Assembly (NCBI GenBank): GCA_029007885.1
Contig: JAQXIR010000022.1
Span: 1-58,035 of the forward strand
From: Lachnospiraceae bacterium
Lineage (GTDB): Bacteria; Bacillota; Clostridia; Lachnospirales; Lachnospiraceae
Length of the DNA: 58,035 nt
Direction of reading: 5' to 3'
The first letter of the stretch is position 1. Each line of letters begins with the position of its first letter. Under the pieces are notes generated by a model. It was given only the letters and a program-made list of their open reading frames with translations, was not told the DNA's origin and ran no database searches. Position numbers and translations under genes: made by a program. Below are positions 4,251 to 27,480 of this stretch, in pieces.

Positions 4251-5432
4251 TTACATTGCTGTGTAGACACCATCTACAATTTTAACTGCTTTCGGTGCTT
4301 TGTTTACTTCACCGTCAGCTGTCCAGGTCATACCTTCACCTGTCAGGCCGTTCAGTTCAATTTCCGTAATACCTTTCTTTAATGCTTCGCAAAGGTCCGA
4401 TACACTCATATCTGCTGTTGCACCGCTCTGTTCGATTGCTGCTTTAATTGCATAGATTGCATCATAAGCATCTGCTGCGAACTGATTCGGGATTTCACCG
4501 TATTTTTCCTGATATTTTGCTACAAATGCCTGTGTTGCCTCATCAGCTGAATCTGCTGCGAAAGGAGTTAACAGCATAACGCCTTCTGCAAGAGACTTAT
4601 CAAAGTTTTCAACTGCAAGAATACCATCAAGTCCGTCACATCCGAAGAACAGCGGAGCATATCCCATGGAATTTGCCTGAGATAAAATCAAAGTTGCTTC
4701 CTGATAGTAAATCGGCAGGAATACAAGTTCAGCGCCTGCATCTTTTGCCTGTAATAACTGCGTTGTAAAGTCTGTCTTATTATCAGCTGTGAAACTTCCT
4801 TCTGCAACTACTTCAATTCCCTGATTCGGAGCTTCTGCTACGAATGTATCTTTAATACCGGAAGAATAAACATCTGAACTGTCGAAAATAACTGCAACTT
4901 TTGTAGCCAGTTTGTTTTCACCGATATACTGTGCACTCTTCGTACCCTGGTTCGGGTCTGAGAAGCATACGCGGAATGCGTTATCATACTGTACACATGC
5001 TACTGCAGAACCTGAAGGTGTTAACTGGAACATATTGTCTTCTTTTGTCTTTTCGGAAACCGCAATACTCGGTGTAGAAGTTACAGTACCCATTAAAATC
5101 TGCATATTCCAGTCTTTCAATGTGTTATAAGCATTTACTGATTTCTCTGCATCATGTTCATCATCTTCAAAACGATATTCAATCGGTGTTCCGTTGATAC
5201 CGCCTGCTTCATTAATCTCATCTACTGCAATCTGTGCTGCATTCTTAACAGCTGTTCCGTATACTGCCGCACCACCTGTAATCGGTCCGATACCGCCGAT
5301 TTTAAAAGCTGCACCATCTGCTGTTGTGGTAGATTCTGCTGCACTGTCACTTGTTGTTGCCGTATTACCGCATCCAACCAGTAAAGAGGCAACCATTGCA
5401 GTTGCTAAAAATAAACTTGCTATTTTTTTCAT
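4251..5432 (-). CDS. livK: Branched-chain amino acid substrate-binding lipoprotein LivK/LivJ
   Basis: Extracellular ligand receptor of the liv importer, a 393-residue lipoprotein. The signal peptide ends in the lipobox LLVGC with Cys21 as lipidation site, followed by a Ser/Thr-rich linker. The mature part is a type I periplasmic-binding fold (Peripla_BP_6): FKIGGIGPITGGAAVYG, AAQIAVDEINEAGGINGTPIEY, and a closing lobe with GYAPLFFGCDG. Several acidic or amino acid ligands are possible within this family, so leucine specificity is inferred from the adjacent LivHMGF genes. It is the first gene of the operon and has its own promoter and a leader hairpin. Confidence 0.93.
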   Translation of the reverse strand: MKKIASLFLATAMVASLLVGCGNTATTSDSAAESTTTADGAAFKIGGIGPITGGAAVYGTAVKNAAQIAVDEINEAGGINGTPIEYRFEDDEHDAEKSVNAYNTLKDWNMQILMGTVTSTPSIAVSEKTKEDNMFQLTPSGSAVACVQYDNAFRVCFSDPNQGTKSAQYIGENKLATKVAVIFDSSDVYSSGIKDTFVAEAPNQGIEVVAEGSFTADNKTDFTTQLLQAKDAGAELVFLPIYYQEATLILSQANSMGYAPLFFGCDGLDGILAVENFDKSLAEGVMLLTPFAADSADEATQAFVAKYQEKYGEIPNQFAADAYDAIYAIKAAIEQSGATADMSVSDLCEALKKGITEIELNGLTGEGMTWTADGEVNKAPKAVKIVDGVYTAM

Positions 5433-9412: not shown

Positions 9413-11158
9413 CTATTCAACATCCTGTAATGCCAAATAGTCTTCTTCACCGGTACGTACTTTTACAACTCTCTGTACGTTGTATACGAAGATCTTACCA
9501 TCTCCGATATGACCTGTATAAAGTGCTTTCTTAGCAGCTTCAATAACATCTTCAACCGGTATCTTGCTTACTACTACTTCAACTTTTACTTTCGGGATTA
9601 AGGTTGCATCCACTTCAACACCACGATATTTCTCGCCGGCGCCCTTCTGAACACCACATCCCATAACCTGTGTAACGGTCATACCTGTTACACCAAGTTC
9701 GTTCATCGCTTTCTTCAGATGATCGTATCTGGAAAGTCTGGATACGATTACAACTTTTGAAATTCCTGTTGCCGGTTCTATGCTCTGAACAACCGGAACT
9801 GCAGCATCTTTCTTAGTTTCTGAAGCCGCATCATAATCGGATTCACCAAGATCTGTATTTTCATTTACTTCCATTGTCATTGTGTTAGATACATCCATGA
9901 TGCTGAATCCTGAGTATGCAGATGCAAGACCATGCTCACAACTGTCAAGACCAACGATTTCTTCTTCCTCTGTAACACGTAATCCAACTGTTTTCTTGAT
10001 AACAAGGAATGCAATCGTAATTGTAACTGCCGTCCATGCTGCAACAGCCGCAAAACCAATCAGCTGAATTCCCAACTGACCGAATCCGCCACCGTAGAAT
10101 AAACCTACGACACTGTCATTTCCCGGTGCAGAAGTTGTTGCAAAAAGACCGACTGCGATAGTACCCCAGATACCGTTTAAGCAGTGAACTGCAACGGCAC
10201 CTACAGGGTCATCGATGTGTAACTTGTAATCAAGGAGCCAAACACCGAATACAACCAGTAATCCGGAAACAATACCGATGATACTTGCACCGAGAGCATC
10301 TGTTACATCACAGGGAGCGGTGATGCCGACAAGACCTGCCAAAGATGCATTCAGACACATGGAGATATCCGGTTTGCCATATTTAATCCAAGTGAAAATC
10401 ATACATACAACGGTTGCAACTGCCGGAGCAATTGTCGTTGTTAAGAAAATGGAACCTAACTGATCAACGCTTGTTGCAGCTGCACCGTTAAATCCGTACC
10501 AGCCAAGCCACAGGATGAAAACACCAAGGCAGCCAAGCGGAAGGTTATGTCCCGGGAAAGCATTTACTTTTGTTACTTTTCCGTTTTTATCTTTTGCAAA
10601 TTTTCCGATACGGGGACCAAGTATTGCGGCACCAACCAATGCTGCGATACCACCTACCATATGGATGGCACAGGAACCTGCAAAATCATGGAAGCCAATC
10701 TGTGCTAACCAGCCGCCACCCCAGATCCAGTGTGCTTCAATCGGATAAATCAATGCCGAAATAATACCGGAATAAATACAATAGGATAAGAATTTTGTTC
10801 TCTCTGCCATCGCACCGGAAACAATTGTTGCCGTTGTGGCACAGAATACAAGGTTAAATACAAAATTTGAAAAATCAAAATTTTCATATGCTGTGAAGAT
10901 ATCAAATCCCGGTTTACCAATCAGACCGATCATATCTTCACCAAGTAACAAACTGAAACCAATCAGGATGAATACAACCGTACCGATACAGAAATCCATA
11001 AGGTTCTTCATCAAAATGTTTCCTGTGTTCTTTGCTCTGGTGAAACCTGCCTCTACCATAGCGAAGCCTGCCTGCATCCAGAACACCAATGCTGCACCGA
11101 TCAAAAACCAGACAGCAAAGACTTGCCCATCAACTGCGCTTAAAATTTCTTCTGTCAT
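9413..11158 (-). CDS. amt: Ammonium transporter with C-terminal PII domain (Amt-GlnK fusion)
   Basis: A 581-residue fusion. Residues 1 to about 410 form an Amt/Mep/Rh ammonium channel of 11 helices: FWMQAGFAMVEAGFTRAKN near the N-terminus, the pore histidine stretches EAHWIWGGGWL and VGAVAVHCLNGIWGT, and FILWLGWYGFNG. After a linker, residues about 470-581 form a PII signal protein: VVIVSRLSRYDHLKKAMNEL, a T-loop with QKGAGEKYRG (the uridylylatable Tyr is kept) and TGHIGDGKIFVY. Free PII normally plugs the channel when nitrogen is plentiful; here the regulator is tethered. An upstream ATG (11218) is rejected because GAGGAGG precedes the ATG at 11158 and the upstream one lies in the leader terminator. 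Confidence 0.95.
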   Translation of the reverse strand: MTEEILSAVDGQVFAVWFLIGAALVFWMQAGFAMVEAGFTRAKNTGNILMKNLMDFCIGTVVFILIGFSLLLGEDMIGLIGKPGFDIFTAYENFDFSNFVFNLVFCATTATIVSGAMAERTKFLSYCIYSGIISALIYPIEAHWIWGGGWLAQIGFHDFAGSCAIHMVGGIAALVGAAILGPRIGKFAKDKNGKVTKVNAFPGHNLPLGCLGVFILWLGWYGFNGAAATSVDQLGSIFLTTTIAPAVATVVCMIFTWIKYGKPDISMCLNASLAGLVGITAPCDVTDALGASIIGIVSGLLVVFGVWLLDYKLHIDDPVGAVAVHCLNGIWGTIAVGLFATTSAPGNDSVVGLFYGGGFGQLGIQLIGFAAVAAWTAVTITIAFLVIKKTVGLRVTEEEEIVGLDSCEHGLASAYSGFSIMDVSNTMTMEVNENTDLGESDYDAASETKKDAAVPVVQSIEPATGISKVVIVSRLSRYDHLKKAMNELGVTGMTVTQVMGCGVQKGAGEKYRGVEVDATLIPKVKVEVVVSKIPVEDVIEAAKKALYTGHIGDGKIFVYNVQRVVKVRTGEEDYLALQDVE

Positions 11159-11177
11159 TTCAATCTCCTCCTCACAT

Positions 11178-11228
11178 AAAAAAAGCAGAGCAAGAATTCG
11201 GAAATCAGTTCCGAGCACCTTTGCTCTG
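11178..11228 (-). terminator. Leader terminator 2 before amt, overlapped by a small AAAGGU-loop hairpin
   Basis: On the minus strand CAGAGCAA (11221-11228) pairs with TTGCTCTG (11186-11193) around an inner hairpin (TCGGAA/TTCCGA), then seven Ts, ending 20 bases before the amt start codon. The 5' arm can alternatively form GAGC-AAAGGU-GCUC (11213-11226). A terminator placed between promoter and gene, with an alternative hairpin on its 5' arm, is the hallmark of antitermination control. Confidence 0.75.
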
Positions 11229-11295
11229 TCTTTTTTATATTTTTATTTTTCCGACTATCCCTAATACTGTCACAAAATTATGTACCAATCGGAAA

Positions 11296-11338
11296 TAAAA
11301 AGAAAAGTGCTAGGGAAATTTTCCTTAGCACCTTTGCT
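11296..11338 (-). terminator. Leader terminator 1 before amt, overlapped by a small AAAGGU-loop hairpin
   Basis: GTGCTA and TAGCAC (stem 11307-11331, with inner GGAA/TTCC pairs) are followed by TTTTCTTTTT on the minus strand. The sequence AGCAAAGGTGCT at 11327-11338 overlaps its 5' arm and can form an alternative three-base-pair hairpin with an AAAGGU hexaloop. The same 12 bases recur at 11214-11225 before leader terminator 2. Confidence 0.65.
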
Positions 11339-11351
11339 TTGTATGTTTTGG

Positions 11352-11380
11352 AGTCTATCACTTAATTTTTTAGGTGTCAA
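11352..11380 (-). promoter_or_regulatory. Sigma-A promoter of amt
   Basis: A perfect TTGACA (11375-11380), 17 bp, and TAGACT (11352-11357) on the minus strand. The predicted start near 11345 leaves a leader of about 185 bases containing two terminators. Confidence 0.8.
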
Positions 11381-25753: not shown

Positions 25754-25768
25754 AACACAGTTGAAACA

Positions 25769-25809
25769 AGGGAGTTTGGACATAATATGTCCTAACTCCC
25801 TCTTTTTTT
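25769..25809 (+). terminator. Leader terminator before pyrG
   Basis: AGGGAGTT (25769-25776) and AACTCCCT (25794-25801) plus GGACAT/ATGTCC form a 14-base-pair stem with a single T-T mismatch and three-base loop, followed by seven Ts (25803-25809). It has a T run only on the plus strand and the flanking genes are divergent, so no upstream gene needs it. It therefore acts as a pyrG attenuator. Confidence 0.75.
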
Positions 25810-25872: not shown

Positions 25873-27480
25873 ATGGCTGTAAAATACGTATTTGTAACCG
25901 GAGGCGTTGTTTCCGGTCTTGGAAAAGGAATTACCGCCGCATCTTTAGGACGATTGTTAAAGGCCCGCGGCTATCAGGTAACGATGCAGAAATTTGACCC
26001 CTATATTAACATTGACCCGGGAACTATGAACCCAATTCAACACGGAGAAGTTTTTGTAACGGATGACGGGACGGAAACTGATTTGGATTTGGGGCATTAT
26101 GAGCGTTTTATTGATGAAAACTTAAATAAGAATTCTAATGTAACAACAGGAAAGGTTTACTGGTCTGTTTTGCAAAAAGAACGTCGTGGCGATTACGGTG
26201 GCGGTACGGTTCAGGTAATTCCCCATATTACGAATGAAATTAAAAGCCGTTTTTACAGCAACGACTCTGATTCCGATATGCGGATTGCGATTATTGAGGT
26301 CGGCGGCACGGTCGGTGATATTGAGAGCCAGCCTTTCTTAGAGGCCATCCGTCAGTTCCAGCATGAAGTCGGACATGAAAATGCCATTTTGATTCATGTA
26401 ACTTTGATTCCTTACCTGAGTGCTTCCCAGGAAATGAAGACGAAGCCTACACAGGCGAGTGTGAAGGAATTGCAGGGAATGGGAATCTGGCCGGATATTA
26501 TCGTATGTCGCAGTGAGCATCCTCTTACCGATGGTATTAAAGATAAAATTGCATTGTTTTGTAATGTCCCAAGCAGCCATGTTCTTCAGAATCTGGATGT
26601 GGAATATTTATATGAAGCACCGCTTGCCATGGAAAAAGAACACCTTGCGCAGGTTGTCTGCGAATGTCTGCATATTGAAGACAGAGAACCGGATCTTACG
26701 GATTGGAAAGAAATGGTGCAGGCATTGCGCACTCCCACAGATGATGTCACTGTTGCTTTAGTCGGAAAATATACCCAGCTGCACGATGCCTATATCAGTG
26801 TCGTGGAATCCTTAAAGCACGGCGGCATTTCCCAACACGCAACTGTAAATATCAAATGGATTGATTCCGAAATCGTGACAGAAGAAAATGTTGAGCAGCT
26901 TCTTTCCGATGTAAACGGCATCCTTGTGCCGGGTGGTTTCGGTACAAGAGGCATTGAAGGTATGATTCTTGCGATTCGTTATGCAAGAGAAAACCGCATT
27001 CCTTTTCTTGGTCTCTGCCTCGGTATGCAGTTATCGATTGTGGAATATGCCAGAAATGTTGTCGGATACCGCGATGCTCACAGTATGGAATTAAACCCCG
27101 ACACTACACATCCCGTTATCGCACTGATGCCGGACCAAAACGGTGTGGAAGATATCGGTGGCACTTTGCGTCTCGGTTCTTATCCATGCGTACTTGACAA
27201 GACAACAAAAGCATATGCTCTTTACGGTGAAGAAACTATCCATGAACGTCACAGACACCGCTATGAAGTAAATAATGAATATCGGGATGTTTTAACAAGA
27301 AACGGCATGAAACTTTCCGGCACCTCTCCCGACGGCAGGATTGTTGAAATGTGCGAAATTCCTGATCATCCCTTTTTCCTTGCAACGCAGGCTCACCCGG
27401 AATTAAAATCACGGCCTAACCATCCGCATCCTTTATTCAAAGGCTTTGTGGAAGCTGCTTTAAAGCAGAAATATTCTTAA
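25873..27480 (+). CDS. pyrG: CTP synthase
   Basis: Glutamine-dependent synthesis of CTP from UTP, 535 residues. The synthetase domain begins [21 protein letters not shown] and holds [16 protein letters not shown] and [23 protein letters not shown]; the C-terminal class I amidotransferase has [10 protein letters not shown] with the nucleophilic Cys, and the HP-E pair in [22 protein letters not shown] lies eight bases before the ATG. It is a monocistronic gene divergent from ftsH. Confidence 0.97.

Follow-up and report, generated by a model that had tools for sequence, protein, structure and literature searches.

Why should the same twelve bases stand at each of two intrinsic terminators that separate the promoter of an ammonium transporter gene from its start codon? 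The gene, amt, is encoded on the minus strand of a 58,035-nucleotide stretch of Lachnospiraceae DNA (contig JAQXIR010000022.1; the whole stretch is called the window below), and its leader spans the region from the promoter (11380-11352) to the ATG at 11158 (Table 1). An earlier note, made from the sequence alone, had proposed that the repeat folds into small hairpins of the kind recognized by ANTAR-domain antitermination proteins. The analysis presented here leads us to suggest, at a probability of about 0.7, that the leader consists of two serial attenuators with one hexaloop hairpin each, which would be read by a NitR-like ANTAR protein such that nitrogen shortage results in read-through into amt.

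Table 1. Features of the amt and pyrG regions of the window
Feature	Position	Strand	Description
amt promoter	11352..11380	(-)	TTGACA-17-TAGACT, extended TG -10; 10/12 consensus matches; predicted start ~11345
Hexaloop hairpin 1	11327..11338	(-)	AGC-AAAGGU-GCU; A1, G4, C-G closing pair
Intrinsic terminator 1 + U tract	11293..11331	(-)	5' arm = loop + 3' arm of hairpin 1
Hexaloop hairpin 2	11213..11226	(-)	GAGC-AAAGGU-GCUC, 4-bp stem; 12-mer identical to hairpin 1
Intrinsic terminator 2 + U tract	11178..11230	(-)	5' arm includes 5' arm of hairpin 2
Ammonium transporter gene (amt) with C-terminal PII domain	9413..11158	(-)	PF00909 5.8e-120, PF00543 7.7e-22
pyrG hexaloop hairpin	25764..25777	(+)	AAAC-AAGGGA-GUUU; -10 TATAAT ends 11 nt before 12-mer
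Terminator overlapping pyrG hairpin	25769..25809	(+)	z -4.6
pyrG, glutamine-hydrolysing CTP synthase	25873..27480	(+)	downstream of the pyrG hairpin

The repeat of the amt leader is a small hairpin

The 12-mer AGCAAAGGTGCT is present in two exact minus-strand copies, 11338-11327 and 11225-11214, each of which overlaps an intrinsic terminator; even with up to one mismatch these are its sole matches in the window, where 0.21 would be expected by chance. Three other GCAAAGGTGC sites in the genome apparently lie within coding sequence and were regarded as chance occurrences. The presence of two intrinsic terminators between promoter and gene, as read by the earlier note, is confirmed by their predicted folds, which reach -17.7 kcal/mol for terminator 1 (11344-11297; z -5.3 versus shuffled sequence) and -19.4 kcal/mol for terminator 2 (11232-11177; z -3.4). 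Between the end of the -10 box and hairpin 1 lie 13 nt, and the RNA would begin about 6-8 nt ahead of this hairpin, at a start site deduced from the promoter; hairpin 2 is located 101 nt further downstream with a terminator in between. Both copies show the A1/G4 hexaloop on a stem of at least three pairs.

At both amt sites the small hairpin and the terminator are mutually exclusive by pairing, but they are so in different registers. The 12-mer had been placed at the 5' arm of each terminator; both copies do overlap their terminator, but it is the loop plus 3' arm that enters terminator 1 and the 5' arm that enters terminator 2. The unit common to the two sites is therefore the small hairpin and not the terminator, and duplication of a terminator does not account for the repeat. 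With the gathering score as cut-off, no riboswitch or leader family of Rfam 15 matched the window, and relaxing the limit to E <= 10 gave weak, implausible matches only; likewise, no known riboswitch or leader family was found in 18 amt loci of relatives.

Conservation, covariation and doubling of the module

Two comparative sets were used, one consisting of the amt upstream regions of 61 related genomes (30 loci) and the other of 80 amt loci from named records, mostly Lachnospiraceae. A hairpin of the form NNC-AANGGN-GNN lies at most 300 nt upstream of amt in 24 of the 30 first-set loci, as compared to 0.2 in mononucleotide shuffles. The 31 hairpins of this set, which were preselected for pairing, give a covariation score of 0.743; shuffling brings it to 0.196 +/- 0.038, and slid versions do not exceed 0.20. 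For an unbiased stem test, sites in the second set were collected by the anchor C[AG]ANGGNG and a downstream T run, with no selection for pairing: stem positions 2, 3 and 4 are paired in 97, 92 and 76% of 86 sites, as opposed to 25, 44 and 46% for the identical anchor in gene bodies and downstream DNA. The stems observed comprise AGC/GCU, GAC/GUC, AAC/GUU, UAC/GUA, CAC/GUG, GGC/GCC, AUC/GAU and UGC/GCA, and 75 of the 78 second-set hairpins overlap a terminator stem. The small hairpin with A1 and G4 that the earlier note had drawn is thus conserved and covarying in relatives, and at hairpin 2 of the window its stem even extends by a fourth pair. In a minority of modules (hairpin plus terminator; leaders L019, L120, L142, L125 and L197) loop position 1 is G and not A, with no change at G4, G5 or the C-G closing pair. 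In the relative G002 the amt module is immediately preceded by a member of the orphan family Clostridiales-1 RNA (RF01699, 108.8 bits; L108 11318-11482, plus strand); this RNA was not found in 18 other amt loci.

The doubled layout, which had been expected to be unusual, is in fact common. Two hairpins are present in 20 of the relatives' 58 module-bearing amt leaders and two complete modules, spaced 49-229 nt apart, in 17; two thirds of the leaders carry a single hairpin only. In Desulfotomaculum acetoxidans at least 13 ANTAR elements are distributed over six transcription units (Ramesh 2012, PMC3369931), and ANTAR control of ammonium transporters has already been proposed in the same work. 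Two modules in series would plausibly lower leakage and steepen the response.

An ANTAR protein encoded next to glnA

The genome encodes one ANTAR protein, a 182-aa polypeptide whose gene (L002 8027-8575) is located directly downstream of glnA. It carries a C-terminal ANTAR domain (PF03861, E 7.9e-16), matches the Rv1626, EutV, NasR and AmiR chains and is NitR-like. In 26 of 29 ANTAR loci of relatives glnA is the neighbouring gene, and the three loci without adjoining glnA encode EutV-like proteins with a complete receiver. In alignments the glnA-linked proteins lack the phospho-acceptor Asp of the receiver, retain Met172 of EutV and in most cases have His at the position of Tyr164. In the AmiC-AmiR and NasS-NasT systems the ANTAR protein is paired with a sensor encoded next door. 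By this precedent glutamine synthetase, whose gene glnA is the regular neighbour, becomes a candidate for the sensor here, and one may speculate that it controls the ANTAR protein in a manner reminiscent of TnrA and glutamine synthetase in Bacillus.

Module and ANTAR protein occur together. At E <= 0.01 the module was found in 39 of 45 ANTAR-positive but in 3 of 16 ANTAR-negative genomes (Fisher p 1.6e-6, a value that ignores kinship among the genomes). The ANTAR-negative genomes G052, G016 and G060 give weak covariance-model matches, and the best of these, in G052, lacks the hairpin. Six relatives have a module upstream of the glnA-ANTAR operon itself; in the leader of glnA in the window's own genome no clear module was seen.

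Other genes preceded by the module

The covariance model of the module, derived from amt leaders, was scanned over the own genome and those of relatives. Its sites precede amt, glnA-ANTAR and genes for type III glutamine synthetase (named from sequence inspection, its NCBIfam match to GlnA being only weak) and glutamate synthase (gltB) as well as purF, pyrG, asnB and glnQ-like genes. This is a coherent ammonium/glutamine set, and the modules probably form a clade-wide ammonium/glutamine regulon under putative ANTAR control. In the window the amt-derived model finds the pyrG module (25764-25809, plus strand) at E 3.3e-4, and pyrG of relatives is preceded by a module too. On contig C182 of the own genome (L097 ~4340-4430, minus strand) the tandem modules AACGAAGGCGUU and AACAACGGCGUU stand behind a good promoter and precede a cytidylate-kinase-like gene that is frameshifted in the assembly. 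Where the model hit the own genome only weakly (E >= 0.19), in no case did a hexaloop stem occur together with a terminator, and the hits in L093, L095 and L096 and the second site in L106, being devoid of the hairpin, were excluded from the module counts.

One hairpin instead of two

The hexaloop rule invoked by the earlier note holds, but the note overlooked that the known ANTAR motif comprises two closely spaced hairpins, of which each terminator here has just one. The eut, nasF and amiE targets consist of two hexaloop hairpins; in eut the natural linker between them measures 5-12 nt, and induction of eutP was lost or fell drastically when P1 was deleted or when the linker measured 3 or 14 nt (PMC3369931). 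Extension of the eut linker by 20 nt led to loss of antitermination in vitro (PMC8934654). When the region 3-20 nt upstream was scanned for a partner hairpin, none of the 31 first-set amt hairpins had one, nor did any of 34 other modules, including the own-genome pyrG and C182 sites; two of 78 second-set hairpins did, those of L136 and L191. The upstream P1 candidates of L120 and L136 both fall inside the promoter and that of L191 is set off by a linker of 17 nt, so that across 143 hairpins no transcribed partner at canonical spacing was found. As a positive control, the same scan recovered a canonical dual-hexaloop site with a 12-nt linker in the relative G049 (L111 ~4745, minus strand), where it precedes eutS-like, eutP-like and EutV-like genes (names from sequence inspection).

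The position of the hairpin leaves no space for a partner either. Of the 35 amt leaders whose promoter agrees with the consensus at 10 or more of 12 positions, 32 have 6-14 nt between the end of the -10 box and the hairpin; if transcription starts ~7 nt past the -10 box of these predicted promoters, only 0-8 nt of RNA precede the hairpin, too little for a P1. The amt modules thus do not contain the tandem hairpins of canonical dual-hexaloop targets, and they do show the canonical exclusivity of the last hairpin with an intrinsic terminator. Judged by predicted start sites, they look like single-hexaloop sites that serve antitermination itself. Within the literature at hand, single-hairpin ANTAR antitermination was not found beyond a 2022 proposal of single-hexaloop binding sites. 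The layout of the Clostridium NitR target may already be known to be single, and we claim as new no more than the lone hairpin at the 5' terminus and how widely the putative regulon reaches.

A model for the amt leader and its alternatives

That the amt leader contains ANTAR-type hairpins exclusive with terminators, as originally proposed, is borne out by the ANTAR gene, the covariation, the occurrence in nitrogen-gene leaders and the co-occurrence with ANTAR proteins. Two outcomes that the earlier note had listed as refuting it, a genome devoid of ANTAR proteins and hairpins lacking covariation, did not turn up. How, then, might the leader work? Each attenuator would pit a hexaloop hairpin of 12-14 nt against its own intrinsic terminator. 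By default both terminators would form and transcription would stop. On nitrogen shortage the single NitR-like ANTAR protein would bind the hexaloop as it emerges from RNA polymerase, hold the small hairpin and thereby block the terminator, and amt would be read. What we infer in this model is the binding, the direction of regulation, the signal and the start of transcription. As a counterpoint, antitermination by a single hairpin conflicts with the tested mechanism of EutV, in which the first hairpin is essential (PMC3369931). The minority of loops with G1 and the own glnA leader, in which no clear module was seen, also speak against the model.

But could the two amt hairpins not be under dual control after all, either as a P1/P2 pair with a long linker or each with a cryptic P1 upstream? 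The targets of EutV, NasR and AmiR are dual (PMC3369931), and actinobacterial ANTAR targets have been accepted with linkers of 2-25 nt (PMC8164766). A distance of 101 nt interrupted by a terminator fits a P1/P2 pair poorly, however, as do the many relatives with one hairpin only, and a cryptic P1 is at odds with the lack of a transcribed partner at the tested spacing and with predicted starts that leave no room for it. Given that extension of the linker abolishes antitermination in eut (PMC3369931, PMC8934654), we consider dual control unlikely.

Nor do we think it probable that a reader of another kind, be it a different RNA-binding protein or a small ligand, recognizes the hairpin in place of an ANTAR protein. 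The weak matches in ANTAR-negative genomes and the leader of the own glnA-ANTAR genes, with no clear module, would be in line with such a reader, yet the A1/G4 hexaloop with its C-G closing pair conforms to the ANTAR rule (PMC3369931), the module is tied to glnA-ANTAR operons, the hairpin is missing from the best ANTAR-negative match, and no Rfam riboswitch matched. Hardly credible is the notion that these are ordinary leader terminators without a regulator, where the loop recurs as a side effect of terminator sequence. An AAAGG loop beside a terminator arm is indeed easily produced, given that CCUUU at the U tract offers it a pairing partner. Most terminators, however, have no need of the 5' arm of the small hairpin, which nonetheless covaries with the 3' arm, an identical hairpin serves two terminator registers, and the genes concerned are functionally coherent.

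Beyond the amt leader itself, it is a tentative thought, and one we would sooner doubt than rely on, that Lachnospiraceae and relatives possess a clade-wide nitrogen/glutamine regulon of single-hexaloop ANTAR attenuators at RNA 5' ends, with a dispensable recruitment hairpin and a glnA-linked pseudo-receiver ANTAR protein that is perhaps controlled by glutamine synthetase. The accepted eut model calls for two hairpins in close succession, one for recruitment and then one for antitermination. A conserved natural regulon of one-hairpin targets would, if true, mean that some ANTAR systems can do without a second hairpin. Such targets would escape published searches with dual-hairpin models (Ramesh 2012; the actinobacterial survey, PMC8164766), and gut and rumen Clostridia would gain a candidate system of global nitrogen control.

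Comparison with known ANTAR systems

With the dual-hexaloop ANTAR RNAs of eut, nasF and amiE (PMC3369931) the modules described here share the A1/G4 hexaloop, the short stem with its C-G closing pair, the overlap with an intrinsic terminator, the association with nitrogen genes including ammonium transporters and, in some species, several elements per operon. Unlike those RNAs, they show a single hairpin at each terminator rather than two at a distance of 5-12 nt; this hairpin usually sits at the predicted RNA start or close to it, and its loop is further conserved as AANGGN. A parallel on the protein side is NitR of C. saccharobutylicum, an ANTAR protein likewise tied to glutamine synthetase and ammonium assimilation, which is reported to induce the GS/GOGAT genes via antitermination on nitrogen limitation (PMC6316151). 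Compared with these targets, the putative regulon would extend to amt, pyrG, purF, asnB and glnQ-like genes. The own ANTAR protein is homologous (E 2e-5) to EutV of Enterococcus faecalis (PMC8934654; PDB 6wsh). Phosphorylation of Asp54 activates EutV, whose Tyr164 stacks on G4, whereas the glnA-linked proteins have no counterpart of this Asp and in most of them His takes the place of the Tyr. Finally, antitermination in eut requires both hexaloops whereas the amt modules have one each; the EutV dimer itself can bind P1 or P2 in isolation and touches a single hexaloop at any one time (PMC8934654).
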